Source: an uncultured Nitrospirales bacterium (GTDB lineage Bacteria; Nitrospirota; Nitrospiria; Nitrospirales; UBA8639). From it: a DNA stretch of 64,000 nucleotides. The position numbers were made by a program, and so were the translations under genes. The first letter of the stretch is position 1. Each line of letters opens with the position of its first letter. The notes under the pieces are model-generated. The model made no database searches. It saw only the letters and a list, made by a program, of their open reading frames with translations, and was not told the DNA's origin. Shown here piece after piece: positions 14,351 through 53,500 of this stretch. The DNA is taken from assembly GCA_958295805.1 (NCBI GenBank), contig OY282373.1, positions 219,001-283,000 of the forward strand, in the 5' to 3' direction.

Positions 14351-15838
14351 GTGAAGAAGTTCAGATTCATGATGCTGTTCATCGTGTTGCTCATTCCCAC
14401 CACCGCCACCGGCGGCGAATGGACGGCGTTGCAGGGGGCGGTATTCATAGGCGACATTGAACAAGTCAAGATGCTCTTGGCGGGCGGGGCGGACGTGAAC
14501 GCCAAGGTGTTCGGACAGACGGCGTTGCATAACGCGGCAGGAAGTGGCGCGGTGGATGTTGTGAAGGTGCTCATTGAGGGCGGGGCGGATGTGGAGGCGA
14601 AGGATCAGTACGGACGGACGGCGTTGCAGAATGCGGCAGGCAGGGGCAAGGTTGACGTTGTGAAGGTGCTCATTGAGGGCGGGGCGGATGTGGAGGCGAA
14701 GGATGATAACAGAATGACAGCTTTGCAGGTGGCGGCAGCCAGTGGCCAAGTGGACGTTGTGAAGGTACTCATCAAGGGCGGGGCGGACATGGAGGCGAGA
14801 AGTGGTTACGGAACGACGGCGTTGCAGGTGGCAGAATTCATGAGACATGACCCCATTGTGAAGGTGCTCATTGAGGCCGGGGCCGGAACAAAGCAAGTAG
14901 TGGAAGCCAAGAACGACGGACAGACATCGTTGCATGACGCGGCATCCTTGGGCAAGGTTGCACAAGTCAAAATGCTCTTGGCGGGCGGGGCGGACGTGAA
15001 CGCCAAGGATGAGTACGGACGGACGGCGTTGCAGGGGGCGGCAGCCAGGGGCTATGTGGATGTTGTGAAGGTGCTCATTGAAGGCGGGGCGGACGTGGAC
15101 GCCAAGGATGGGAGAAGGAAGACAGCGTTGCATGAGGCGGCAGCCAGGGGTTATGTGGATGTTGTGAAGGTGCTCATTGAAGGCGGGGCCGGAACAAAGC
15201 AAGTAGTGGAAGCCAAGAACGACAGACTTCCGGGAACGGCGTTGCATCTGGCGGCAGCCATAGGCGCAGTTGAACAAGTCAAGACGCTCTTGGCGGGCGG
15301 GGCGGACGTGAACGCCAAGAATGAGAAGTACTCCGGATTTACGCCGTTGCATTGGGCGGCAGTCGCGGGACATGTTGACATTGTGAAGGTGCTCATTGAG
15401 GCGGGGGCGGACGTGGACGCCAAGGAGAATGAGTCCGGACGGACGGCGTTGCAGGGGGCGGCAGTCGCGGGACATGTTGACATTGTGAAGGTGCTCATTG
15501 AGGCGGGGGCGGACATGGACACCAAGGGGAAGAAGTCCGGACGGACGGCGTTGCAGGGGGCGGCAGACAGGGGCCGGGTGGATGTTGTGAAGGTGCTCAT
15601 CAAGGCCGGGGCGGATGTGGAGGCCAAGGATGAGTACGGACGGACGGCGTTGCATCGGGCGGCAGGCGCGGGCGAGGTTGACGTTGTGAAGGTGCTCATT
15701 GAGGGTGGGGCGGATGTGGAGGCGCAGGAGAAGGACGGACGAACCCCCCGCGACGTTGCCAAGGATGAGGGCATCATCCGACTGCTTGACCAAGCCACAG
15801 GCCACCAGCCACCGGACACGAGAACGGAGACCCCATGA
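14351..15838 (+). CDS. Secreted/periplasmic ankyrin-repeat protein
   Basis: A GTG start preceded by GGAGAG gives 495 residues. A signal peptide of about 22 residues (KKFRFMMLFIVLLIPTTATGG) is followed by about 13 ankyrin repeats of 33-36 residues with the consensus TALxxAAxxGxVDVVKVLIEGGADVxAKD, and a short degenerate cap. Two repeats (the fifth and eighth) carry the same AGTKQVVEAKND variation and are each followed by an LLAGGADVNAK unit, suggesting block duplication. Ankyrin stacks bind proteins; the partner is unknown. The gene interrupts the usual mnmE-mnmG adjacency. A 557-codon antisense frame over it is a shadow of the repeats. Confidence 0.92.
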   Translation: MKKFRFMMLFIVLLIPTTATGGEWTALQGAVFIGDIEQVKMLLAGGADVNAKVFGQTALHNAAGSGAVDVVKVLIEGGADVEAKDQYGRTALQNAAGRGKVDVVKVLIEGGADVEAKDDNRMTALQVAAASGQVDVVKVLIKGGADMEARSGYGTTALQVAEFMRHDPIVKVLIEAGAGTKQVVEAKNDGQTSLHDAASLGKVAQVKMLLAGGADVNAKDEYGRTALQGAAARGYVDVVKVLIEGGADVDAKDGRRKTALHEAAARGYVDVVKVLIEGGAGTKQVVEAKNDRLPGTALHLAAAIGAVEQVKTLLAGGADVNAKNEKYSGFTPLHWAAVAGHVDIVKVLIEAGADVDAKENESGRTALQGAAVAGHVDIVKVLIEAGADMDTKGKKSGRTALQGAADRGRVDVVKVLIKAGADVEAKDEYGRTALHRAAGAGEVDVVKVLIEGGADVEAQEKDGRTPRDVAKDEGIIRLLDQATGHQPPDTRTETP

Positions 15839-39495: not shown

Positions 39496-40731
39496 ATGGA
39501 TTTATTTGACATCCTCGCCATTGTGCTCAGCCTGACCGCGGGATTCTCGTATCTCAACTATCGGTTCGTGGGATTACCCGTCACCATCGGCGTGATGGTG
39601 ATGGCCTTAGTGATTTCCCTGCTGCTGCAAGGGATCGATCTCCTGGGATTCCACCTGGAAGACCAAGCCGCCGGCTGGCTTCAATCCATCGACTTTAACA
39701 AGACGCTGCTTCACGGCATGTTGAGTTTTTTGCTCTTTGCAGGAGCCTTGCACGTCAATCTCAACGATCTCTTCAACCAGAAATGGGTCATCGGTTCGCT
39801 AGCCACCGTCGGAATCCTGCTCTCCACCGTGCTGGTCGGCACGTTCACGTATGGCGTGTTGACCATGATCGGCATTCCGCTTGACTATCTCTCCTGCCTC
39901 GTCTTTGGCGCGTTGATTTCCCCCACCGATCCCATTGCGGTGCTGAGCATCTTGAAAAATGCCAAAGCCCCGAAAAGTTTAGCCGTGAAGATTACCGGAG
40001 AATCGCTCTTTAACGATGGCGTCGGCGTCGTGGTTTTTCTCGTCCTCGTCGAATTGGCGGCCGGAACGCACGAACCCACCGTGACCCACGTCGTCGGCCT
40101 GTTCGCCCAAGAAGCCGTGGGCGGCATCGTCTTTGGATTCGGATTGGGCTATCTGACCTACCGGCTGCTCAAAAGCATCAACAACTATCAAGTCGAAGTG
40201 ATGCTCACCCTCGCCGCGGTGACCGGCGGTTATGCGCTGGCCAGTGCGCTCCACCTGTCCGGCCCCCTGGCCGTTGTCGTGGCCGGGTTGCTGGTGGGGA
40301 ATCACGGTCGGGTGTTGGGGATGTCGGACAAAACCCGGGAGCATCTGGATACGTTTTGGGAATTGGTTGATGAAATCTTGAACGCGGTCCTCTTTGTCCT
40401 GATCGGCCTGGAAGTGCTGGTTCTCACGTTCACCCAGCACGACCTCCTCGCCAGCGTGTTGATGATACCCCTCATTCTCCTGTCGCGGGCCGTGGCGATC
40501 GGACTGCCCATCGCGCTTCTGAGGCGCGTGCGATCATTCACCCCCGGAGCAACGTGGTTAATGACGTGGGGCGGCTTGCGCGGCGGAATCAGCGTAGCCC
40601 TGGCCCTGTCATTACCCCCTGGCCCAGACCGCGACATCATCCTGGCAATGACCTACGTCGCAGTCGTATTCTCCATCGTCGTCCAAGGCCTGACCATTGA
40701 AAAGCTGGTAAAATCCATGATCCCGCGGTGA
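39496..40731 (+). CDS. Na+/H+ antiporter, CPA1/NhaP type
   Basis: The ATG at 39496 (MDLFDILAIVLSLTAGFSYLNYRFVGLP) gives 411 residues; a TTG two codons earlier is an alternative. There are about 12 membrane segments, with ALISPTDPIAVLSILKNAKAPKSLAVKITGESLFNDGVGVVVFL-type sequence containing the ND pair of CPA1 antiporters, and TWGGLRGGISVALALSLP near the C-terminus. It exchanges Na+ (or K+) for H+ across the inner membrane. Its last 46 bp recur, imperfectly, at 41466-41511. Confidence 0.94.
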   Translation: MDLFDILAIVLSLTAGFSYLNYRFVGLPVTIGVMVMALVISLLLQGIDLLGFHLEDQAAGWLQSIDFNKTLLHGMLSFLLFAGALHVNLNDLFNQKWVIGSLATVGILLSTVLVGTFTYGVLTMIGIPLDYLSCLVFGALISPTDPIAVLSILKNAKAPKSLAVKITGESLFNDGVGVVVFLVLVELAAGTHEPTVTHVVGLFAQEAVGGIVFGFGLGYLTYRLLKSINNYQVEVMLTLAAVTGGYALASALHLSGPLAVVVAGLLVGNHGRVLGMSDKTREHLDTFWELVDEILNAVLFVLIGLEVLVLTFTQHDLLASVLMIPLILLSRAVAIGLPIALLRRVRSFTPGATWLMTWGGLRGGISVALALSLPPGPDRDIILAMTYVAVVFSIVVQGLTIEKLVKSMIPR

Positions 40732-40741
40732 GTGAAAGGGG
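40696..40741 (+). repeat. Direct repeat, copy 1 (3' end of the antiporter gene)
   Basis: 46 bp, from ATTGAAAAGCTGGTAAAAT to AGTGAAAGGGG, are repeated at 41466-41511 with four mismatches, offset by exactly 770 bp. The two copies bracket a DNA-binding-protein fragment. They look like attachment-site-like repeats or a local duplication. Confidence 0.75.
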
Positions 40742-40876
40742 AAAATCTTAAACAAGAATCAATTCTCATGCCAATGCGGATGACAGCCACAACACAAATC
40801 CAGCTACCGTGGCGAAATTGCTGAGCAAGCAACTCGGGATGCTGTTCGAGGCTACAACGAAACCCTTGCAAAATGT

Positions 40877-41128: not shown

Positions 41129-41404
41129 GTGATCACAAAATGTGATCACCTCCAGAATCTCAAGTTCTTCAAAGCCCTGCCCCATGCCTTTACCGAACAC
41201 GGTGCGCTGATGGCCGCCAACGTGCTCAACAGCCCCGCCGCCGTCAGAATGAGCGTGTTTGTTATTCGAGCCTTCGTCAAACAACGGGAAACGCTGGCGA
41301 TCAACCAAGCTGTTCTGAGATGCCTAGCCGAAATGGATAAAAAGCTTCTCCTCCACGATTCCGCCCTGAGCGACATCTACAAAAAACTGCTCCCCCTGCT
41401 GTAA
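41129..41404 (+). pseudogene. ORF6N-type DNA-binding protein, C-terminal fragment
   Basis: The 91 codons NLKFFKALPHAFTEHGALMAANVLNSPAAVRMSVFVIRAFVKQRE..DKKLLLHDSALSDIYKKLLPLL match the C-terminal half of ORF6N-family proteins (phage-related DNA-binding proteins), which carry LPYAFTEHG and VRAFVKLRE. The N-terminal ORF6N domain is missing. It lies between the two copies of the antiporter-end repeat. Confidence 0.65.
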
Positions 41405-41465: not shown

Positions 41466-41511
41466 ATTGAAAAGCTGGTAAAATTCTTGATCCCGCCTTG
41501 AGTGAAAGGGG
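41466..41511 (+). repeat. Direct repeat, copy 2
   Basis: Second copy of the 46-bp antiporter-end repeat (42 of 46 bases as at 40696-40741). It marks the left edge of the segment leading into the cas operon. Confidence 0.75.
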
Positions 41512-41549
41512 ATGTCTCCTACAAGACGAGCAACGACTCTCGGGCTTAC

Positions 41550-41659
41550 CAAGCAATGAGGCCGGGCCTTGCGGCCCGGATAGATACGCCAAAAAGGTCG
41601 CGTAAAAAACTGAGTACTTCAGCACTTCAATGAGATTTCCGGCCAAGGGGTTGACAGGA
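41550..41659 (-). ncRNA. Candidate CreR/CreA-like crRNA-like regulator
   Basis: Read on the minus strand, a pseudo-repeat ends at 41624. Its CTCATTGAAG (41634-41625) equals CRISPR repeat bases 26-35. A 38-nt spacer follows (41623-41586). A second pseudo-repeat (41585-41550) has a hairpin CCGGGCC-GCAA-GGCCCGG and CGGCCTCATTG (41564-41554), which equals repeat bases 22-32. The spacing between the two conserved blocks implies a 38-nt spacer, within the array's 36-38 nt range. The spacer begins GCTGAAGTACTCAG and matches 14 of 15 bases at 41687-41701 beside a TTT PAM. The first pseudo-repeat lacks a convincing hairpin and no clear minus-strand promoter is seen, so transcription is inferred. Confidence 0.72.
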
Positions 41660-41711
41660 GGATTATGGATGGTTACCTTTCTGTTTGCTGAAGTACTTAG
41701 TATGATATAAA
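41651..41711 (+). promoter_or_regulatory. Putative cas operon promoter with CreR-like target
   Basis: A perfect -35 TTGACA (41651-41656) has a weak -10 TACCTT 17 bp on. Alternatively TATGAT (41701-41706) or TATAAA (41706-41711) could serve as -10. The candidate target GCTGAAGTACTTAG starts at 41687 with TTT immediately 5' (41684-41686), the TTN PAM reported for type I-G systems. Cascade bound here would cover either promoter and the first codons of the operon. Confidence 0.6.
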
Positions 41712-41712
41712 C

Positions 41713-41931
41713 ATGAAGAAAAGAGGTCAACTTATGACAAAAAAACGCAAATCAAGCCTAACAGTTAGCCTTAAAGCAAAATATGTTCTGAACGAAATTA
41801 CGGATGATGAACCGACCAACAACACCTACGGTTACCAACAATGCCAATCCGTCGAAGCAGAATTACCCAACTTTTCTCAATTCGTCCACACAAAGCACAT
41901 TCAAAGAAAAGAGGTAAAAAATGGCGATTGA
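41713..41931 (+). CDS. Small Lys-rich ORF heading the cas operon
   Basis: The 72-residue frame MKKRGQLMTKKRKSSLTVSLKAKYVLNEITDDEPTNN..KEVKNGD has a basic N-terminus and acidic centre. It ends 10 bp inside csb1, so its translation could couple to that of csb1. The csb1 ribosome site (AAAGAGGT) is within it. No family recognised. It may be a novel small Cas-linked protein, a leader peptide, or a non-coding leader. Its position directly after the candidate CreR target makes it a possible regulated product. Confidence 0.45.
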   Translation: MKKRGQLMTKKRKSSLTVSLKAKYVLNEITDDEPTNNTYGYQQCQSVEAELPNFSQFVHTKHIQRKEVKNGD

Positions 41932-43102
41932 TCTGGATACCTTGCAAAAATCTGTGAAACAGGATACTGCCATCCGCCGTGTACAGCGTCTCCAACCTGT
42001 CGGTGGGCAGGGCGATAAAGTGTTCCCTCCAACGTATCCCGGGGCTAGTCAGAAAGAGCCGGCAAGACATGTATTCGAAACACGTCGAATCAATAGGGAT
42101 GATGTCCGATGTGTCCTGCTTGATAGCGTTCAGAGCCAAGCTAATCGACTCGAAGAAGCGTTGTTGACGGCTATACGGGCGGGAACAATGTCTATGCCTT
42201 ATGTAGTTGTTGATTTCGATGGGCAGAGGTCAACAAACTATGATTTAAGCGATCTTGGGGAAATTACCTCACTTGACGCACCACACCGCGTATTTGACGC
42301 AATCATCCGTGACAGCAACCTAGGTGACAAAAGGTTCACGGAGACGAATCATTACAAGGAACTACAGCTTGCAAAACCGACGAATGCAACGTCAGTCTTC
42401 AAGCTAAACCCAACTTCACTTTTATTTGGTGCATGGAATTCGACAGGAGAGGGCGGGGGGCTAGGCGCAAAATTCGCCCGATGTATCGTATCGGAAGTTG
42501 TTGGAGTAGGAGTGCAAGAAGGTCAGAAGCGTGCTGTTAGAATTGATCCGCTGGGCATACGTGCCGAAATTAAGGTTGTTGGCGGACCGATCGACTGGAC
42601 TGTAGGAGAGAGAGGAAAGGGAAGCAAAAAACCGTCCGAAATCAGCCATTCGAATATAATATCGAATCTTGTGCCCGGTGGCGTCACTATTGATTACGCT
42701 CTCCATACGGCGGTTATTTCCTTTGCTGGGTTAAGACGGCTCAGATTTCCTGAAACGCAAGACGAGAACGCGGGACTCACTGTTCTTGCGGCACTCGCCC
42801 TTGTTGCCCTGACCCAGCAGGACTCCAACGGCTATGCGTTACGCTCCCGTTGTGACCTCGTGTGTGATGGCAAAGCCGCATTTGAGATAGTACACCAAGA
42901 TGGATCAACGAAAGAGATGGAGATCAGTTCTGATGATGCTGTCAAGGTGTTCAAAGAGTCTGTATCTGTTGCAAAGAATGCAGGGTTTCTGTGGAACGAA
43001 GAACCGATCCGGCTCCAACCTCAAGAACGACTTGTTGAACTCGTCGCTCTATCCCGGGCGAAAGCGCTTTCAGGAGAAGCCGAAAGCGATAACCAACAAT
43101 GA
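41921..43102 (+). CDS. csb1: Type I-G (I-U) Cascade subunit Cas7 (Csb1)
   Basis: The 393-residue protein, starting MAIDLDTLQKSVKQDTAIRRVQRLQPVGG, matches the GSU0053/Csb1 family. Features include RHVFETRRINRDDVRCVLLDSVQSQANRLEEALL, SLDAPHRVFDAIIRDS, and NPTSLLFGAWNSTGEGGGLGAKFARCIVSEVVGVGV. Csb1 is the Cas7-type backbone that coats the crRNA spacer. It is the first large gene of the interference operon and is followed 13 bp later by csb2. Confidence 0.93.
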   Translation: MAIDLDTLQKSVKQDTAIRRVQRLQPVGGQGDKVFPPTYPGASQKEPARHVFETRRINRDDVRCVLLDSVQSQANRLEEALLTAIRAGTMSMPYVVVDFDGQRSTNYDLSDLGEITSLDAPHRVFDAIIRDSNLGDKRFTETNHYKELQLAKPTNATSVFKLNPTSLLFGAWNSTGEGGGLGAKFARCIVSEVVGVGVQEGQKRAVRIDPLGIRAEIKVVGGPIDWTVGERGKGSKKPSEISHSNIISNLVPGGVTIDYALHTAVISFAGLRRLRFPETQDENAGLTVLAALALVALTQQDSNGYALRSRCDLVCDGKAAFEIVHQDGSTKEMEISSDDAVKVFKESVSVAKNAGFLWNEEPIRLQPQERLVELVALSRAKALSGEAESDNQQ

Positions 43103-43115
43103 TTGAGGATTCGTC

Positions 43116-44642
43116 ATGCTTGCGATAGAAGTCGAATTTTTGACTGGAGTGTCGGTAGCGGCATCGCCCTACCGACGCGAGGAACCAGAATGGCCACCCC
43201 ACCCCGACAGGCTGTTCCAGTCCCTTGTCGCGGCCTGGGGCAGGAACAATCCGCCAAACGAGGAAGAAAAACTGGCGCTTAAATGGCTCGAAGCACTCGA
43301 CAGAAACAGTCTTGAGGTTTACGCACCGGCGGCACGTCCGCGCACCGTGGCTACAGTCTTTGTGCCGCCGAACGATGCACGTACCGCAGGCAGGGCCGGT
43401 AGTAAGCCGCCCAAGGAGGTAGGTGAAGCGATACATGTAGTGCCGGAGTTACGCAAGAACCGTCAACCACGCGTCTTTCCGGCTGTCGTCGTAGATCCGG
43501 TCTCCGACACAAGTCCCGCGACAACAGGGAATGGCAAGGCCTCTGTCCATTACATCTGGCGCAACCCGCATGGTCTTGAATCGCATCGGGATACGCTTGA
43601 ACGGCTCGTCAGGGAAGTCACCTATCTAGGTCATTCGCACACTTTGGTCAGGGTGGCGCTCGTTGACGAAGTAGCCGCAGCCGTAACGGACAGCTTAAGA
43701 TGGGTCGACTCGAAAGGTACAGCTTTGCGATGTCCTCACGAAGGACGACTCAAACATCTGGAGAGCCAGTACAAGAGGTCGATGAAAAGCACCGTGGCTG
43801 TGCGACCCAGCCCATCTCTTGTCGCAAAGGAATTTCATCTACCTCATGAAGCTGCGTCCACTAGGCTGTTCGACGATAAGAACTTTATCACGTTCGAGGA
43901 CGCTGGCGGTTTTTGCCCTTCGCTGTCCGCTTTCCCCCTCATTGCTAAGCGGCTGCGCGACGCGCTGCTTAAAATCGCTGATGACGAGGGGATATCAATC
44001 CCCACGCTCCTCTCGGGACACAACAGTGACAAACGCCCAACTACAGACGCTCATCTTTCGATGGTTCCACTCGCCGATGTCGGAGGGGAGTACTCTCAAG
44101 GACGCCTCATGGGCTTGACTATCGTGTGGCCACGTTCGGCAGATGACGAGGATAGACGTAACGTTCTGAAGATACTGGCAAAATTTTTCATGGATAGGGA
44201 AGAACACACAGGATTGCTTCACTTCGGCCACAACGGTTCGTGGCAACTACGGCTGTCACCGGAACCAGTCCGGCAATCTTTGAAGTTTGAACGTTATGTG
44301 AAACCAGCGAAACGTTGGGGCACGGTTCTTCCAGTTGTTCTCGACCGCCATCCAAAGAACAAGCCGAATCAGGATGTTTCAGCGATTGTTGTCAATACCT
44401 GTCTGAACGCCGGTTTGGAATTTGAAGCAGTTAAAGACTTGAAGATGGAAGTCCATCAGTATGCGGCAGTCCGGGGCGCACCATCTGCTCAGGAAATTGC
44501 CAGGACATTGCCAAAAGACAGCCCCTATCGCAGCCGGCCTCTCGTACATCTTGTCCTGGATTTCCCGCGTCCGGTTCATGGCCCTTTGATCCTTGGGGCT
44601 GGAAGATTTCGGGGACTTGGCTTGTGTCTCCCTCTTAAATAG
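43116..44642 (+). CDS. csb2: Type I-G Cas5-Cas6 fusion (Csb2)
   Basis: The 508-residue protein begins MLAIEVEFLTGVSVAASPYRREEPEWPPHPDRLFQSLVAAWG, the Csb2/GSU0054 N-terminus (Cas5-like RAMP). It ends in a Gly-rich Cas6-like loop LILGAGRFRGLGLCLPLK. A His-containing PTTDAHLSMVPLADVGGEYSQGRLMGLTIVWP segment is conserved in the family. It caps the crRNA 5' handle and is thought to process pre-crRNA, whose repeats carry a hairpin. It stops 10 bp before the cas3 start. Confidence 0.92.
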   Translation: MLAIEVEFLTGVSVAASPYRREEPEWPPHPDRLFQSLVAAWGRNNPPNEEEKLALKWLEALDRNSLEVYAPAARPRTVATVFVPPNDARTAGRAGSKPPKEVGEAIHVVPELRKNRQPRVFPAVVVDPVSDTSPATTGNGKASVHYIWRNPHGLESHRDTLERLVREVTYLGHSHTLVRVALVDEVAAAVTDSLRWVDSKGTALRCPHEGRLKHLESQYKRSMKSTVAVRPSPSLVAKEFHLPHEAASTRLFDDKNFITFEDAGGFCPSLSAFPLIAKRLRDALLKIADDEGISIPTLLSGHNSDKRPTTDAHLSMVPLADVGGEYSQGRLMGLTIVWPRSADDEDRRNVLKILAKFFMDREEHTGLLHFGHNGSWQLRLSPEPVRQSLKFERYVKPAKRWGTVLPVVLDRHPKNKPNQDVSAIVVNTCLNAGLEFEAVKDLKMEVHQYAAVRGAPSAQEIARTLPKDSPYRSRPLVHLVLDFPRPVHGPLILGAGRFRGLGLCLPLK

Positions 44643-44652
44643 GAGCGTAATC

Positions 44653-47600
44653 GTGGTGGAATTATCTGCCGATGATTTCTCTGAATTCTTCAACGCAGTT
44701 CACGGTGTGAATCCGTTTCCCTGGCAATCAAGGTTGGCGCGGCAAGTTATTGAAAAAGGGGAGTGGCCGTCGCTTCTTGACCTACCGACCGGTACCGGTA
44801 AGACCGCTACAATCGACATTGCCGTCTTTCATCTCGCATGTGAGGCCGAGCGTGGACCGAAACGCAAAGCTCCACTACGAATTTTGTTCGTCATCGACCG
44901 CCGTATTGTCGTTGATGCGGCTTTTCAACGAGCACGGAAAATCGCTGATGCTATCAAAATCGCTGATGGTGGCATTCTGGAGAACGTTGCAAACCGCTTA
45001 CAGTCCTTCGCCGGGGATAATGCCCCAGTTCTTCAGGTAACCAGACTCCGAGGCGGCATGCCACAAGAACGGGATTGGGCACGTTCTCCCGCACAGCCTC
45101 TTGTAGGAGTCTCAACGGTTGATCAAGTAGGTTCACGACTTTTCTTCCGCGGCTATGGTGTTTCGCAGCGGATGTGGCCAGTACATGCTGGTCTGGTCGG
45201 GTCTGATGCGTTGTGGCTGCTTGACGAGGTGCATCTCTCGACACCGCTTGATGAGACGCTTGACGCCATAGTTACTGGACACCCGAAGCAGAGAGGAGGC
45301 GTCATTGCGGAAATGCCACGGTTGGCGCCGTTCACAGTGGTCAGGCTTTCGGCAACGCCGGGAGAGAGTACCGAAAAACCGTTCCGCCTGTCCGATGAGG
45401 ACCGAACGCACGCGAGTCTCAGTCGCCGACTTGAATCGCGTAAGTTGGCAAAGATCGAAACTTGGAGTGACGGCAAAGCAGTCGAAGAGTTCTCCAAGGC
45501 GGCCATGCAACTTACTGATTTGATTACTGAATCGTCGGAGACTAAGACAGAGCGAAGAAAAAGGAAACAACCGACCGCCATCCATCTTCCTGTTCGTCGT
45601 TTAGCTGTAGTCGTTAACCATGTCGGTCGGGCTCGTAAAGTCTTCGAGGAACTCAAAGAAAAAGTGGGGGAGAGAGCAAAGGTTGTGTTGCTTACCGGCC
45701 GTATCCGACCACTTGACCGCGATCGGATCATGGAGGATAAGGCTATCGCATCGCTTCTTGCTACGCCAAATCGCAATCTTCCGGAACGGCCGATCATCCT
45801 GGTTGCCACTCAAACTATAGAGGCAGGTGCTGACTTTGACGTTGACGCGCTCGTGACCGAAATTGCACCTCTCGATTCCCTGCGCCAACGTTTCGGGCGA
45901 TTGGACAGATTAGGTGAACGGGGCGAGAGCCGTGCCGTAATCTTGTGTCCTTCTAGCAAAAAGCCCAAAGATGGCGAAGACAACGACTGGACGCCGATCT
46001 TTCGACTTTACGATGACTCGGCATACGAAACTGGAAAATGGCTCGGAAAACCTGGTTCGGAGGTCGATTTCGGCATTGACGTTTTTGCACTCAAGATTGA
46101 AGAAGCAACTAAGAACCACACTATTAAAAAATTGATTGCGCCGCGCTGTCATGCTCCGGTGTTGTTCCCTCCATATGCCGAATTGTGGGCAGCCACGTCA
46201 CCGCCACCACTTGCGACTCCTGAGCCAGCCCTGTTTCTCCACGGGCCGAAAAAGCGGGCGGATGTTCAGGTCGTATGGCGAGCCGATGTTGATCTGGAAG
46301 ACAAAGACGCATCAAACCGGTCGCTACGATGTTGTCCGCCGTCGTCCCTCGAAGCGATATCCGTTCCCATATGGGCAGTGCGTGCATGGTTGCGCGCTAT
46401 CAAAATTGCCGAAGGTGTTGCAGACGTACCGGAAACCGAACTCTCGGAAAGAGGAGGCACTCAAGGACAGTCTTGTCTTAGATATCCTAGACGTGACGAT
46501 TCACTCTGGCGGAAGGTGTTCGCCCACGAGTTGAAGCCGGGCGATACCATTGTTGTGCCATGCTCCTATGGCGGTTGCGACCGATGGGGTTGGAACCCTG
46601 ATGGAGACATCAAGCCGGTGGTTGACCTCGGCACACAGGCTCACTACTACCAACGGTTGAAAGGCGCCTTGCGTGTAACCCGTGAGACTCTGACCAATGC
46701 CTTGGACCAGGAAGCTAACGGCGATAGCGCGGGCAGTTTCGACGAAATTTGGCACAATATTCAGCGATTGATCCAAGAAGACGGGGGCGACCTTAAGGCC
46801 GAGACCATACGTGCGGGTCTTGCAGAAATCGATGCTCTACCAGAGACCTGGCGGCAATTGCTGAAGGCGATGGAGGGAGAGAAACGGGGCATAGAAATCG
46901 AATTCTGTAAGGATACCGATCATGAGCCGTGGTTCGTACTCTACGTAAAAAACCGTCTGAAAAGCGGCGTATTGCCAGAATTATGCAAGACTGAACTCGA
47001 TGACGAATCCAGCAACGATGCTGTCACTGAACGAGATGATTCTTGGGCGACAGGCGTGCGTGTTGAACTCCTTGATCATCTTGATCACGTCGAAGCTAAA
47101 TCGCGTGACTTGGCCCAACGATCTGGCCTTGACGAAAAAATGACGAAACTCCTTGCTCTCGCGGGAAGAATGCACGACCTGGGTAAAGCCGACCATCGCT
47201 TTCAGACTGACCTCTATGGGGTCAGCACACTGACACGATTGAGCCTTAATGACATCTTTTTCCATCCTTTGCTCGCAAAAAATACTCAAAAAGATAGACC
47301 GAGGAGCCACAACCGTGCTGTCTCTAAAAATTTCCGTCACGAGGCCTTGTCGATAGCACTCGCACAGGAACACCATACCGTGAAGCAACTGAATGAAGAA
47401 GAGAGCGACTTAGTTCTCTGGCTCGTAGGTACGCATCACGGACACGGCCGCCCTTTTTTCCCGCCGTGTGAGGATTGTATGGACGGTCCAACAAAGGGAA
47501 CGACCGTTAGCATGGAAATAGACGGACAAAAGTTGGTGGCGAATACTGTCGACGCGCCGATCCGGATGGATCAGGGATGGTTTGAGCGTGGGGCACGTCT

Positions 47601-47709
47601 TTTGCGGCGTTTTGGTCCATGGGAACTGGCTCGGCTTGAAGCAATTCTTCGGCTCGCCGATCATGCAGCCTCGGCTGATGAGCAGATGTCGGGGAACTTC
47701 CAAGATTGA
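44653..47709 (+). CDS. cas3: Cas3 helicase-nuclease (C-terminal HD)
   Basis: The GTG at 44653, 7 bp after AGGAG, gives 1018 residues. The SF2 helicase comes first: Walker A LPTGTGKTATID (near residue 45), DEVH box LLDEVHLSTPLDE, SATPGE, and motif VI QRFGRLDRLGERGESR. The HD nuclease is C-terminal, with GRMHDLGKADHRFQ (about residue 840) and later His/Asp-bearing segments LAQEHHTV and GTHHGHGRPF. Helicase-HD order is the reverse of Escherichia coli Cas3 and is usual in I-G. It is recruited to Cascade-bound DNA and degrades it. Confidence 0.94.
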   Translation: MVELSADDFSEFFNAVHGVNPFPWQSRLARQVIEKGEWPSLLDLPTGTGKTATIDIAVFHLACEAERGPKRKAPLRILFVIDRRIVVDAAFQRARKIADAIKIADGGILENVANRLQSFAGDNAPVLQVTRLRGGMPQERDWARSPAQPLVGVSTVDQVGSRLFFRGYGVSQRMWPVHAGLVGSDALWLLDEVHLSTPLDETLDAIVTGHPKQRGGVIAEMPRLAPFTVVRLSATPGESTEKPFRLSDEDRTHASLSRRLESRKLAKIETWSDGKAVEEFSKAAMQLTDLITESSETKTERRKRKQPTAIHLPVRRLAVVVNHVGRARKVFEELKEKVGERAKVVLLTGRIRPLDRDRIMEDKAIASLLATPNRNLPERPIILVATQTIEAGADFDVDALVTEIAPLDSLRQRFGRLDRLGERGESRAVILCPSSKKPKDGEDNDWTPIFRLYDDSAYETGKWLGKPGSEVDFGIDVFALKIEEATKNHTIKKLIAPRCHAPVLFPPYAELWAATSPPPLATPEPALFLHGPKKRADVQVVWRADVDLEDKDASNRSLRCCPPSSLEAISVPIWAVRAWLRAIKIAEGVADVPETELSERGGTQGQSCLRYPRRDDSLWRKVFAHELKPGDTIVVPCSYGGCDRWGWNPDGDIKPVVDLGTQAHYYQRLKGALRVTRETLTNALDQEANGDSAGSFDEIWHNIQRLIQEDGGDLKAETIRAGLAEIDALPETWRQLLKAMEGEKRGIEIEFCKDTDHEPWFVLYVKNRLKSGVLPELCKTELDDESSNDAVTERDDSWATGVRVELLDHLDHVEAKSRDLAQRSGLDEKMTKLLALAGRMHDLGKADHRFQTDLYGVSTLTRLSLNDIFFHPLLAKNTQKDRPRSHNRAVSKNFRHEALSIALAQEHHTVKQLNEEESDLVLWLVGTHHGHGRPFFPPCEDCMDGPTKGTTVSMEIDGQKLVANTVDAPIRMDQGWFERGARLLRRFGPWELARLEAILRLADHAASADEQMSGNFQD

Positions 47710-47722
47710 TGAAGGAATCAAC

Positions 47723-48634
47723 GTGGCAGGGACAACCGAACATGAACTGAGTAGTCTTGAACCGGACAATCTTCTCGCGTTTCTTGCCCTGCTCGGTTTG
47801 TTGCGATCCCTTGAAACCGCCAAACCCGACTGGCATCCGCGGGTTAAATGGCGAGGCTTGCCGCTTTCGGCAACCTTGGTAATTGATCGTGAAATAACAA
47901 GCGACCAACTCGCATTTGAGATCGATGTTGGCGTGAAACAGATCGGACAATCGTATGCTGTTCTTGACGGTCATGATAACATCAAATTTACGGCGGAAGA
48001 ATTCAGAACTCTTTTTCAGAAAACGCGGACCGACCGTATCCAATCACAAATAGTGTGTGTGCTTGCATCAGACGGCGCCATCAAGAAAAATGGCAAGGAA
48101 ATTGCGCCCACGGCTTTTTGTGCAATGTTCGGTTCCGGGCACCAGCATTTTCTCACGAGGCTTCGATCCGTCCCGTGTGACGGCACTGCGGACGATATAC
48201 ACTCGGCTTTGTTCGAACCATGGCAATACTCGGACGACACTTCGAGTTTTAGATGGGACCCGATTGAGGACCGGCGTTACGCGCTTCAATTTGGTGATCC
48301 AAGCAAGTCAGAGAACAAAGTCGGAACCGTGACCGGAGCAAACCGTCTTGCCGCCATCGGGTTCGGAACGCTTGTCAGTGTGCCGACTGCACAAGGACTT
48401 GCAACACTCGGCATTGTAGACAAGGACAAACAAAAATACGCATGTTGGCCGATACCCACCGTTCCAACAAGCCTCACCGTATATTTAGCTCTTCTAGCCC
48501 ATCCAGCCCTAGCGAACCCAAAAGAGTCCTCTCAGTTGGTTGCTTACGGTATTTCGGCAATAGCACAAGCAGAACGCTTTCAAGTTGACAGATACTTCAA
48601 TTTTGCCCGAGCCCGGATGCAGTTCTTATCTTGA
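47723..48634 (+). CDS. Small Cas8-like subunit (Csb3/GSU0052-type)
   Basis: A GTG at 47723 after AAGGAA gives 303 residues, beginning AGTTEHELSSLEPDNLLAFLALLGLLRSLETAKPDWHPRVKWRG. The EPDNLLAFLALLGLLRALE-type opening recurs in type I-U/I-G Cas8-like proteins (Csb3 and Csx17). At ~300 residues it is closer to Csb3 than to Csx17 (~700). It probably fills the large-subunit role in PAM recognition. The exact family name is uncertain. The alternative ATG at 47582 would lie inside cas3 and is rejected. Confidence 0.75.
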   Translation: MAGTTEHELSSLEPDNLLAFLALLGLLRSLETAKPDWHPRVKWRGLPLSATLVIDREITSDQLAFEIDVGVKQIGQSYAVLDGHDNIKFTAEEFRTLFQKTRTDRIQSQIVCVLASDGAIKKNGKEIAPTAFCAMFGSGHQHFLTRLRSVPCDGTADDIHSALFEPWQYSDDTSSFRWDPIEDRRYALQFGDPSKSENKVGTVTGANRLAAIGFGTLVSVPTAQGLATLGIVDKDKQKYACWPIPTVPTSLTVYLALLAHPALANPKESSQLVAYGISAIAQAERFQVDRYFNFARARMQFLS

Positions 48635-48798: not shown

Positions 48799-49163
48799 AT
48801 GACCAACAGGCTTGAACAGGCTCTCTTCTTTGTATATTTTGACCAAACCGGTCATGAAGAAGGAGAGTCTTATGGGAAGGCTCGTCGATCCACACTGATT
48901 GGGACGCTGGCGCTTGCCGGCTGGAAGCTGGGAGAGACCAAAGCGAAGTTCGGCGATGTCGTTCGCCTTGCAGCCTCGGGGCAGCCTCATCGTGTCACGG
49001 TTCACGGCAAGGACGCGGTCGTCATTTCGGCGTCCGAATTTGAACGCCTTCGGGCGTTGGGTGCAGCGACAAGGTTCACGATCTCTTCTCTCAACCTCCC
49101 TTGAACCGCTTGGAATTCGACAATGAGGGTGTGCGGAGTCCGGTCCGCGCGGTCGAGTTGTGA
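48799..49163 (+). pseudogene. Phd/YefM-type antitoxin, frameshifted
   Basis: The frame WKLGETKAKFGDVVRLAASGQPHRVTVHGKDAVVISASEFERLRAL is a clear Phd/YefM antitoxin. After LRAL the sequence shifts frame near 49065. The next frame gives DKVHDLFSQPPLNRLEFDNEGVRSPVRAVEL and a TGA at 49161, exactly abutting the toxin ATG. The N-terminus is also unclear: the ATG at 48799 adds an odd ~40-residue extension. The gene is probably inactive. Confidence 0.7.
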
Positions 49164-49698: not shown

Positions 49699-51411
49699 AT
49701 GAATCGAAACGACCAACTCTCTCTTGCCTTGCCCCCTCCGCCGGCTGACGCCGACACGCCGCTTATCCCGGCGCGCATGGTCAATGAGTGGGTCTATTGT
49801 CCGCGGTTGGCTTATCTGGAGTGGGTCGAGGGTGAATGGGCGGAGAGCGGCGATACGGCAGAAGGTGCGCGAACCCATGCCCGAGTCGACGAGGGTGGGG
49901 GGCACTTGCCTGCCCCAGAAAATCTCAGCGAGGAGATGTCCCGAGCTAGGGCCGTCACCCTTTCCTCTGAGCGTCTGGGTATTATTGCCAAGATGGACGT
50001 GGTGGAGGCGGACGGCGGAACGGCCACGCCCGTGGACTTCAAGAAGAGCAAGCGGCCCCACGTCGCCGCTGGTGCTTACGAACCTGAGCGGGTCCAGGTC
50101 TGCGCCCAAGCCATGATCCTGGAGGACAATGGATATACGGTCGCTCAAGGTGCCCTCTGGTACGCCGGCTCGCGTGAGAAAGTGCCGGTCGTCCTGGACG
50201 ATGAACTCCGTGCCCAAACGTTGGAGGCGATCTCGAGCCTTCGCATGGCCGCGGACTCTGGTCGTCGCCCTCCGCCACTCGAAAACAGTCCCAAATGCCC
50301 GCGCTGCTCGCTGGCGGGTATTTGTCTGCCGGATGAGACCAACTTGTTTCGAAAGGGATATCCGCCTCGGTCACTTAACCCGTCCGACGATCCGGCGCTT
50401 CCTCTCTACGTCCAGACGCCGGGCGCACGATTGCGCAAGAGTGAAGAGCGGTTGGTCGTTGAGATTGAAGAAGAAAAAGTGGAACTGCCGCTGATCGACG
50501 TGTCCCAGGTCGCGCTGTTTGGCCCGGTCTCGGTGACGACGCCGGCGCTGCACGCCCTGATGCGCGCTGAGATTCCGGTTTCTTGGTTCTCCACCGGAGG
50601 CTGGTTTCTTGGCCATACGGTCGGGACCGGCAACGGCAACGTGGCGGTGCGCGAGGCACAATACCGGCTGGCATTTGATGAACGTCGTTGCCTCTCGTTC
50701 TCGCGTGATCTCGTAGAAGCAAAAATACGAAACGCTCGCACCTTGCTCCGCCGCAATTGGCGCGCAGAACGGAACGTAGACGCCAGAGAAGAGACGCTGA
50801 CCAAGCTGAAGCGCGTGGCCCAGCATGCGCCTCATGCCAGCAACGCTCAGCAGTTATTGGGTGTCGAGGGCGAGGCGGCCGCGATCTATTTTGCGTGTTT
50901 CGAGAACATGTTGACCATGGACGCAGACGAAGGCCTCGCCGCGTTTTCCTTCTCGACGCGCAATCGGCGTCCACCCACGGACCCTGTAAACGCAATGCTG
51001 TCGTTGGCGTATGCCCTGCTGACGCGGGCCTTTGCCACGACGATCTCGGCGACGGGACTGGACCCTTACATGGGCTTGTACCACCGCCCTCGCCATGGCC
51101 GCCCGGCATTGGCCCTTGATTTGATGGAACCGTTCCGTCCTATCGTGGCCGATTCCTGCGTGATCCAAGCCGTCAACAACGGCGAAGTGAAGCCGGGCGA
51201 TTTCGTATTCAACGGGCCGGCGTGTGCGTTGAAGCCCGGTGGCCGGAAGGCACTCATCGCTGCGTTTGAACGCCGTATGGAACAAGAGACGACTCATCCA
51301 CTGTTCGGATATCGCGTCTCCATGCGCCGGTTGATTGACGTGCAGGCGCGACTGCTTGCCCGACACGTGCAGGGAGAGATTCCGACCTATCCACATTATC
51401 TCCCCCGGTAG
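49699..51411 (+). CDS. cas4-cas1: Cas4-Cas1 fusion, adaptation integrase
   Basis: The 570-residue protein has an N-terminal Cas4: YCPRLAYLEW, RecB-type AKMDVVEADGG..PVDFKKSK, and KCPRCSLAGICLPDE with the Fe-S cysteines. A Cas1 from about residue 235 has the metal ligands in LGVEGEAAAIYF (Glu), YHRPRHGRPALALDLMEPFRP (His and Asp). Cas1 integrates spacers with Cas2. Fused Cas4 selects PAM-bearing prespacers (TTN in the Geobacter I-G system). cas2 follows 5 bp downstream. The promoter should lie in the ~110-bp gap after the PIN pseudogene. Confidence 0.95.
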   Translation: MNRNDQLSLALPPPPADADTPLIPARMVNEWVYCPRLAYLEWVEGEWAESGDTAEGARTHARVDEGGGHLPAPENLSEEMSRARAVTLSSERLGIIAKMDVVEADGGTATPVDFKKSKRPHVAAGAYEPERVQVCAQAMILEDNGYTVAQGALWYAGSREKVPVVLDDELRAQTLEAISSLRMAADSGRRPPPLENSPKCPRCSLAGICLPDETNLFRKGYPPRSLNPSDDPALPLYVQTPGARLRKSEERLVVEIEEEKVELPLIDVSQVALFGPVSVTTPALHALMRAEIPVSWFSTGGWFLGHTVGTGNGNVAVREAQYRLAFDERRCLSFSRDLVEAKIRNARTLLRRNWRAERNVDAREETLTKLKRVAQHAPHASNAQQLLGVEGEAAAIYFACFENMLTMDADEGLAAFSFSTRNRRPPTDPVNAMLSLAYALLTRAFATTISATGLDPYMGLYHRPRHGRPALALDLMEPFRPIVADSCVIQAVNNGEVKPGDFVFNGPACALKPGGRKALIAAFERRMEQETTHPLFGYRVSMRRLIDVQARLLARHVQGEIPTYPHYLPR

Positions 51412-51416
51412 CCGTC

Positions 51417-51710
51417 ATGGCTAACGAGCGTCTCTACGTCGTCACCTACGACATCGCCGAGCCGAAACGGTGGCGACGGGTCTTTAAGACAATGAAAGGC
51501 TACGGCCACTGGCTGCAATTGTCGGTCTTTCAGTGTCGGTTGACGGCTAGGCGACGTGCCGAAATGATCGGGCGTTTGGAAAAACTGATCCGGCTTGCGG
51601 AAGATCACGTCCTGATCATTGACCTGGGTCCTGCAGACCGCGTTGATCTTCACGTCGAGAGCTTGGGCAAGGGCTACGAAATCCCAACCCGACAAGCTAT
51701 AATTGTCTAA
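51417..51710 (+). CDS. cas2: CRISPR adaptation protein Cas2
   Basis: The 97-residue protein MANERLYVVTYDIAEPKRWRRVFKTMKGYGHWLQLSVFQCRLT has the conserved beta1 Asp (YDI) and the WLQxSVFxC Cas2 motif, with a C-terminal VDLHVESLGKGYEIP. It dimerises and bridges Cas1 dimers during spacer integration. It lies 5 bp after cas4-cas1 and is followed by the leader and array. Confidence 0.95.
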   Translation: MANERLYVVTYDIAEPKRWRRVFKTMKGYGHWLQLSVFQCRLTARRRAEMIGRLEKLIRLAEDHVLIIDLGPADRVDLHVESLGKGYEIPTRQAIIV

Positions 51711-51918: not shown

Positions 51919-53120
51919 ATTTCCGAGGCAAGCTTGCCTCGGCCTCATTGAAGCACGGTACGCATGAAAATGTCGGTATTATATTTTCCGGATTTCCGAG
52001 GCAAGCTTGCCTCGGCCTCATTGAAGCAAGTTTTGCGAGCAGAGCGGAACACCGTACTTTCTCTAATTTCCGAGGCAAGCTTGCCTCGGCCTCATTGAAG
52101 CTGCCGAAACAATAGCATGACCTTTTCCAAAATAGTAATTTCCGAGGCAAGCTTGCCTCGGCCTCATTGAAGCTGGTGGTGGTATTACACCAAAAGATCG
52201 CAATCGATTATTTCCGAGGCAAGCTTGCCTCGGCCTCATTGAAGCGTGGTGATCCTCGTCTGTGGCAAAATGAACCACCACACATTTCCGAGGCAAGCTT
52301 GCCTCGGCCTCATTGAAGCGTTTGACAGATGCTGGTGATATGCAAAAGGATGCTCATATTTCCGAGGCAAGCTTGCCTCGGCCTCATTGAAGCTTCGTAA
52401 AACGAACACTACCCTGAAAGTCAATCCGAATTTCCGAGGCAAGCTTGCCTCGGCCTCATTGAAGCGCCAAAGACGAGGGTCGCCACTGAATTCCTTATAG
52501 TCATTTCCGAGGCAAGCTTGCCTCGGCCTCATTGAAGCGGTGCGATACGACCGGTTGGCATACGGAACGGGCGAATTTCCGAGGCAAGCTTGCCTCGGCC
52601 TCATTGAAGCACCAATCTGAGTATGCGGATCGCACGTTCCGCGACGCGATTTCCGAGGCAAGCTTGCCTCGGCCTCATTGAAGCCCGCCCGCGTCCGCGT
52701 TCGCCGACGAATAACGCCGGCATTTCCGAGGCAAGCTTGCCTCGGCCTCATTGAAGCTATTTCACCGGAAGTTAGTATCTCATTAACCAATTCATTTCCG
52801 AGGCAAGCTTGCCTCGGCCTCATTGAAGCCAGTATTGGTTTTATTACAAATGCGTTCATGCTCGTCATTTCCGAGGCAAGCTTGCCTCGGCCTCATTGAA
52901 GCCAGTATTGGTTTTATTACAAATGCGTTCATGCTCGTCATTTCCGAGGCAAGCTTGCCTCGGCCTCATTGAAGCACTTGGTCGCAGTTTCAGGACCTTT
53001 TGCGCGACCGTTATTTCCGAGGCAAGCTTGCCTCGGCCTCATTGAAGCGTATAGTGGATGTTCGGATTTCCATCCGAGATTTTGATTTCCGAGACAAGCT
53101 TGCCGCGGCCTCATTGAGGC
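51919..53120 (+). CRISPR. CRISPR array, 17 repeats of 36 bp, 16 spacers
   Basis: Repeats begin at 51919 and recur with spacers of 36-38 bp. The first 16 are identical: ATTT, the perfect palindrome CCGAGGCAAGCTTGCCTCGG, then CCTCATTGAAGC. ATTGAAGC fits the conserved type I 5' handle, so transcription runs from the cas2 side. The seventeenth repeat (53085-53120) has three substitutions, marking the old end. Spacers 13 (52830-52866) and 14 (52903-52939) are identical. No spacer visibly matches elsewhere in this window. Antisense frames reading ASMRPRQACLGN are artefacts of the repeat. Confidence 0.98.
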
Positions 53121-53500
53121 TAGGGTTTGATCAGTCGGCTTTTCACGCTGGAGTAGCCATTTCTGCCGCCTTCCCTTTCACCCTCACTTCCTGCCGTCCG
53201 TGGGGGCAGGGTTTCTCCTCTCCCATCAAGAAACTTTTGTAAAAATCGTCATTCCTGTATATGGTCGCCGGTTGTTGACAGAAAAAGGGGAGGGGGCCGT
53301 TCCTAGTGCCAGGTGAAGCGAGCTGCCCGCCCTCCTTCGGCGCGGGCAACGGGACCATTCCTGCTCAACGGCTGGCTCTCCGAGTGCCAAAGGTCTATAC
53401 ATGGACGGGCTTGTGACAGGATTTCATGGTATGGTAAATCTTCAGGATCAATGAAAACAGAGGAAGAGAACACAGAGTCATCATTGCGACAAGGGTGGCC
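53121..53500. other. Gap between array and glycosyltransferase
   Basis: 380 bp with no supported gene. Possible short frames on both strands lack family features. An AT-rich segment around 53420-53450 may hold the promoter for the next gene. Confidence 0.4.

Follow-up and report, generated by a model that had tools for sequence, protein, structure and literature searches.

A CreR-like mini-CRISPR adjoining a type I-G cas operon points to RNA-guided Cascade autorepression

Introduction

The survey by Shmakov et al. (2023; NAR 51:8150) reportedly describes crRNA-like mini-arrays and standalone repeats aimed at cas promoters, mostly in type I systems. CreR guides (Liu et al. 2023, Cell Host Microbe) are described for subtypes I-B, I-E and V-A (PMC13131331; also PMC12737573). 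The related CreA RNA pairs with its target at positions 1-5 and 7-11, and a one-repeat CreA form occurs in Haloarcula hispanica (PMC8501985). In subtype I-G, crRNAs carry an 8-nt handle, Csb2 cuts 4 nt beyond the repeat hairpin, the PAM is TTN, and Cascade, which has a 5+1 structure, flips out every sixth base (PMC9638904).

Here we analyse a 64-kb stretch of DNA (the window) from an uncultured Nitrospirales bacterium, in which a similar element was first noticed from the sequence alone. That sequence-only reading knew of no I-G example, and none was found in our literature search, the scope of which did not include the primary surveys of Shmakov et al. (2023) and Liu et al. (2023).

Results

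The type I-G locus

The I-G gene set of the window is complete and lies on the plus strand. It comprises csb1/cas7g (41921..43102; TIGR02570, PADLOC Cas7g), csb2, a Cas5-Cas6 fusion involved in crRNA processing (43116..44642; TIGR02165), cas3g (44593..47709; TIGR02621), cas8g, which matches a Cas3-extension family (47582..48634; NF049934, PADLOC Cas8g), a cas4-cas1 fusion (49699..51411; NF049935), cas2 (51417..51710; PF09827) and a CRISPR array (51919..53120). The true starts of cas3g and cas8g are probably located further in. The array, 10 kb away from the element described below, consists of 16 intact repeats (ATTTCCGAGGCAAGCTTGCCTCGGCCTC|ATTGAAGC) and a degenerate final repeat (53083-53125), separated by spacers of 36-38 nt, two of which are neighbours (52792-52937) and identical. 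An ORF resembling Phd/YefM antitoxins is found inside the operon, between cas8g and cas4-1 (48799-49104; PF02604, E 7.2e-06, just under the cut-off), and has no obvious toxin partner. The first ORF of the operon is small (41734..41931, plus strand; 65 aa, or 72 aa if read from 41713), overlaps the csb1 start, and belongs to no family in Pfam or NCBIfam.

Anatomy of the mini-CRISPR

The minus strand beside the operon reads, from 41634 to 41554, CTC|ATTGAAGT, GCTGAAGTACTCAGTTTTTTACGCGACCTTTTTGGCGTAT and CTAT-CCGGGCC-GCAA-GGCCCGG-CCTC|ATTG, which matches the pseudo-repeat, gap and hairpin-bearing second pseudo-repeat of the sequence-only reading. The first pseudo-repeat, psiR1 (41624..41659), keeps the CTC cut context and the conserved 8-nt handle ATTGAAGT (41631-41624; handle rule from PMC9638904), in which 7 of 8 bases are retained and the last is T, not C. 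Its hairpin part is degenerate, and the lack of a clear hairpin counts against the interpretation favoured below, as it bears on how the 5' end of the guide would form. The second, psiR2 (41550..41583), preserves exactly both the hairpin, with a 7-bp stem (41579-41562), and the cut context CCTC|ATT, which places the predicted Csb2 cut at 41558/41557. Thus, degenerate ectopic repeats that retain the handle and a Cas6-type cut context adjoin the cas operon, as is typical of CreR.

The pseudo-spacer (41586..41623) starts with GCTGAAGTACTCAGT. Its length had been given as exactly 38 nt, a figure that holds for the handle-to-handle period, which is 74 nt (36 + 38) as in the array. Counted up to the 5' edge of psiR2 the spacer measures 40 nt, because psiR2 has a hairpin loop shorter by 2 nt. 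The two cut contexts delimit a predicted mature guide RNA of ~74 nt (41558..41631, minus strand).

Apart from its array copies, CTCATTGAAG is confined in the 64-kb window to this site and to two copies in a coding tandem repeat at 15.1 kb. The latter copies belong to ankyrin-type coding tandem repeats (14540-15730; VKVLIEGGADVEAKD), two of which contain the motif by chance. The handle alone is unspecific, as CNCATTGAAG is found 64 times in the genome, array copies included.

Two copies of a 47-bp direct repeat (91%), derived from the end of a Na+/H+ antiporter gene, are located at 40696-40742 and 41466-41512, and probably are the trace of an insertion or duplication. They flank ~720 bp containing an ORF6N-like fragment (41129-41404; PF10543, E 0.0028, under the cut-off). 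We considered this fragment as a CreP-like toxin and discarded it, as it is fragmentary and lies upstream of the element.

The target precedes the first cas ORF

The target (41684..41703, plus strand) consists of a TTT PAM (41684-41686) and a matched protospacer (41687-41703). The first 17 bases of the pseudo-spacer (41623-41607) match it at 15 positions, with mismatches at 12 and 16. The 14/15 match, the mismatch at position 12 and the TTT directly 5' had all been noted beforehand, and the match is now seen to reach 17 nt. The PAM-plus-seed pattern has one exact match in the 2.9-Mb genome. An R-loop covering the full 38 bp would extend to 41724.

The match had been placed in a putative promoter. 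It does lie just 5' of the first ORF of the complete I-G operon, while the promoter itself is a weak consensus match. A candidate cas promoter maps to 41651..41679 (plus strand; TTGACA-17 nt-TACCTT, 9/12, weak -10), and an alternative -10 box, TATGAT (41701-41706, plus strand), lies inside the protospacer. Both were identified by consensus match only, and neither is strong, which counts against the favoured interpretation. A candidate promoter for the guide RNA, also found by consensus match only (41702..41730, minus strand; TTGACC-17 nt-TATCAT), overlaps the protospacer, and the guide may therefore also limit itself. Partial, seed-centred complementarity flanked by the PAM of the subtype is hence found at the cas promoter region, as in CreR, with the promoter in the window being a weak consensus match.

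The element recurs in I-G loci of other genomes

One genome per species was scanned, yielding 80 further I-G loci in other genomes. These were searched for an ectopic ATTGAAG followed by a seed with a TTN-flanked match of at least 9/10 within 600 bp. The criterion is satisfied by 17 of 131 ectopic ATTGAAG sites, compared with 4 of 750 sites for 20 shuffled handles and 1 of 131 for reversed seeds; on these controls, a chance origin was rejected. If the PAM is not demanded, TTN still flanks 15 of 16 strong matches, and control handles give zero TTN matches. If the handle is not demanded, TTN-flanked pairs fall into two groups, a background in which few handle letters are retained and a distinct peak of 18 pairs that keep 8-9 of the 9.

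Widening the set with weaker handles and hairpin inspection gave 25 pairs, made up of 23 of the 80 loci, the window and the congener G012 (locus L020). Loci L104 and L083 were kept despite weaker handles because a proper second-repeat hairpin follows, and L069 and a second pair in L078 were judged spurious. The same plan is thus present in 23 of the 80 loci, in G012 and in three plasmid systems, two from Thermus and one from Methylomagnum. Stems of the psiR2 type are found in 20 of the 25 pairs, the period is 69-74 nt in nearly all of these 20, and sigma-70-like promoters lie beside the target at 10 loci, against 2.2 expected. The sequence-only reading had proposed a search for a conserved pseudo-repeat/spacer/pseudo-repeat with a co-varying target next to csb1, and would have been refuted by a lack of handle and seed conservation; the arrangement does recur in other I-G loci, with handle and seed conserved.

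In G012, the homologous element precedes csb1, and features the handle ATTGAAGG, the pseudo-spacer GATGAAATTATCAGTTT and a second repeat with the hairpin CCGGGCT-GCA-AGCCCGG followed by CCTC|ATT. Its target is flanked by TTA and matched at 14 of 17 positions. In the plasmid systems of Thermus thermophilus (e.g. NZ_AP025605.1 and NZ_AP024306.1), CGTTGCAGG serves both as the diverged handle of the array and as the ectopic handle before cas7. The pseudo-spacer pairs with the target at positions 1-5, 7-11 and 13-16, the target abuts TTGACA-17-TATGCT, and a terminator-like GGCCCGGGCCCTTTTTT replaces the second repeat. The element is also present in Methylomagnum ishizawai.

About two thirds of the examined I-G loci are devoid of such an element, which therefore is not required for I-G function. 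No convincing element was found in other csb1-bearing genomes of the same phylum, and none in the plasmid I-G loci of Rhodothermus marinus, Azotobacter and Streptomyces. Viral contigs scanned with Csb1 yielded nothing.

Guide and target pair in a I-G pattern and change together

In the 25 pairs, matching is near 100% at positions 1-5, 7-8 and 10-11, and drops to 32% at 6 and 20% at 12, the bases flipped out by I-G Cascade. It ranges from 68 to 88% at positions 13-17, and is at chance level from 18 on. Positions 6 and 12 were outside the main criteria used to select pairs, and the profile agrees with what the published 5+1 architecture of I-G Cascade predicts (PMC9638904). Position 9 is matched in 60% of pairs; besides 6 and 12, it is broken in ~40%, in several lineages (for instance L040, L047, L068, L072, L076, L090, L110 and L020).

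Guide and target are kept as a pair across relatives, as in CreR. Between the window and G012, seed and target change jointly at positions 2, 7 and 10, and between L047 and L068 at positions 2, 4, 10, 13 and 15; no change is uncompensated in either comparison.

The same data bear on an objection raised by the sequence-only reading itself, namely that the inverted GAGTACTTCAGC and GCTGAAGTACT are a plain operator, with two sites for a DNA-binding repressor. The two sites do face in opposite directions, and AGTACT forms a palindromic core in each. However, an operator needs no handle, hairpin, PAM or breaks at positions 6 and 12, all of which recur across relatives, and the seeds of relatives differ, are mostly non-palindromic, and occur as direct copies in L045, L081, L105 and L111. 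The operator is so improbable that, given the pairing periodicity, the PAM, the handle and the variety of seeds, we regard it as excluded.

Small ORFs and toxin genes near the target

Targets in relatives mostly lie in the region 5' of the cas operon, and some of them are followed by a small ORF of ~63-72 aa. Such an ORF, of no known family, runs up to the csb1 start, frequently with an overlap of the ATGA type, in the window, in L020 (9038-9244) and, just before csb1, in L047, L068, L072, L076, L078 and L093. Six of these sequences align recognisably, and those of the window and G012 align weakly. An HMM built from the six relatives' ORFs found no further members. In L093, a HicA-like sequence lies directly 5' of csb1, with no recognised guide.

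The element might thus be an addiction module akin to CreTA or CrePA, in which the guide would mainly silence a toxin, either the small ORF at 41734-41931 or an RNA from the target-to-csb1 interval, such that loss of Cascade would harm the cell. An ORF between target and csb1 is shared by the window and several relatives, and guard-like forms do exist in I-G. For instance, the L090 guide faces a HicA gene (PF07927, E 1.4e-13) ~1.2-1.4 kb before csb1, and the L111 guide faces a DUF3368/PIN-like gene just before csb1; CreR-like and guard-like forms thus seem to coexist in I-G. In the window, however, the small ORF falls in no toxin family, it overlaps the start of csb1 and would be expressed along with the cas genes, a strange arrangement for a toxin that has to be kept off, and several relatives lack a comparable ORF between target and csb1. 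We consider an addiction module unlikely at this locus. Of the two alternatives offered by the sequence-only reading, Cascade autorepression fits the window locus best, ahead of a guarded toxin.

Evolution of the element

On the Csb1 tree, presence of the element needs at least 18 changes, 14 of which are forced by well-supported branches, against 22 for shuffled labels. As read from this tree, the element is repeatedly gained or lost, the 18 changes being slightly under the shuffled value.

Comparison of the window with G012 gives 87-89% identity for cas4-1 and cas2, and 73% DNA identity over 106 bp for the guide region. In contrast, the effectors csb1, csb2, cas3 and cas8g (41921-48634 in the window, 9241-16720 in L020) are 29-39% identical at the protein level. 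The guide on one side and the adaptation module on the other are conserved, and the effector genes between them look as though they had been swapped within the genus. The genome G010 has G012-like effectors (Csb1 77% identical), yet no element.

Could the element be a decayed remnant, either an old array fragment or a decaying self-targeting spacer now out of use? In favour of this, each of the two pseudo-repeats is degenerate, and the element is missing from related systems, G010 among them. Still, the PAM and the 15/17 match are intact, the differences from the congener are paired changes of seed and target, and the element stays alignable (73% DNA identity, 106 bp) though the adjoining effectors are only 29-39% identical as proteins. 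Moreover, working CreA genes usually have degenerate repeats (PMC9458426, PMC8501985). A remnant is very unlikely.

The identity contrast between the window and G012, together with position-9 breaks in several lineages, leads us to a further, tentative idea, which may well prove wrong. The I-G guide could be part of a conserved locus frame (guide, cas4-1, cas2 and array) that outlives effector exchange and is re-tuned by paired changes to the promoter newly acquired, and pairing over 17 nt, interrupted at 6, 9 and 12, could be a subtype-specific code for binding rather than cutting.

Discussion

From the observed anatomy, PAM, pairing periodicity, covariation and recurrence in relatives, we infer with high confidence that the element is a CreR-like autoregulatory guide, by which I-G Cascade would repress its own operon. 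Transcription of the minus strand would yield an RNA spanning 41631-41558, which Csb2 would cut at psiR2, and probably also at or near psiR1, to give a crRNA-like RNA of ~74 nt. Loaded with this guide, I-G Cascade would bind the TTN-flanked site before the first cas ORF through the 17-nt partial match, enough for binding and a transcription block. By analogy with CreA, which pairs over 1-5 and 7-11, such a match would be too short to license Cas3 cleavage. Cascade would thus keep Cas levels low, and these would rise once Cascade is diverted by array crRNAs or an anti-CRISPR.

If so, RNA-guided Cascade autorepression extends to I-G, a structurally divergent type I effector. The design recurs in Thermus, Alicyclobacillus, Acidobacteriota, Planctomycetota, Verrucomicrobiota and Proteobacteria, which suggests that, across many phyla, I-G systems restrain themselves through their own targeting complex; to judge from the HicA- and PIN-type-facing relatives, toxins may be guarded by this design in I-G as well. 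The 25 natural pairs constitute an evolutionary read-out of I-G Cascade-DNA pairing, covering the seed, the flipped bases, the 17-nt limit and the TTN PAM. Two predictions follow: that I-G interference is restrained by its own Cascade, which is relevant to editing with endogenous I-G systems, and that Cas levels would go up in the presence of anti-CRISPRs acting on I-G. Thermus thermophilus is a tractable host for testing them.

Among known systems, Racr likewise involves an ectopic repeat that yields a crRNA-like RNA, but Racrs are encoded by viruses as single repeats and sequester Cas proteins (PMC10651486), whereas the element adjoins cas genes and combines a guide with a target. In CrePA (Shu et al. 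2025, as cited in PMC12737573), a crRNA-like RNA silences a protein toxin, and L090 and L111 are similar in this respect. CreP typically features KilA-N. The window has no KilA-N-type toxin under the targeted promoter, and its ORF6N fragment lies upstream, not between target and csb1. CreTA, known from I-B systems of Haloarcula and Halobacterium and from I-F systems of Acinetobacter, shares with the element two degenerate repeats that retain the processing nucleotides, pairing at positions 1-5 and 7-11, and a PAM. Some CreTA consist of one repeat and a terminator, like the Thermus I-G copy. CreA, however, silences an RNA toxin, while the target in the window precedes a cas operon and no toxin is recognised. 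The closest resemblance in plan is to CreR, which, as cited in PMC12737573 and PMC13131331, is also a mini-CRISPR with degenerate repeats that adjoins the cas operon, with a PAM-flanked partial match at the cas promoter region and, by prediction for the element, Cascade autorepression. CreR is described for I-B, I-E and V-A (PMC13131331), whereas the element belongs to I-G, where Cascade contains the Csb2 fusion and no Cas5 sits at the handle; unlike that of CreR as described there, I-G pairing reaches position 17 and breaks at 6, often 9, and 12.
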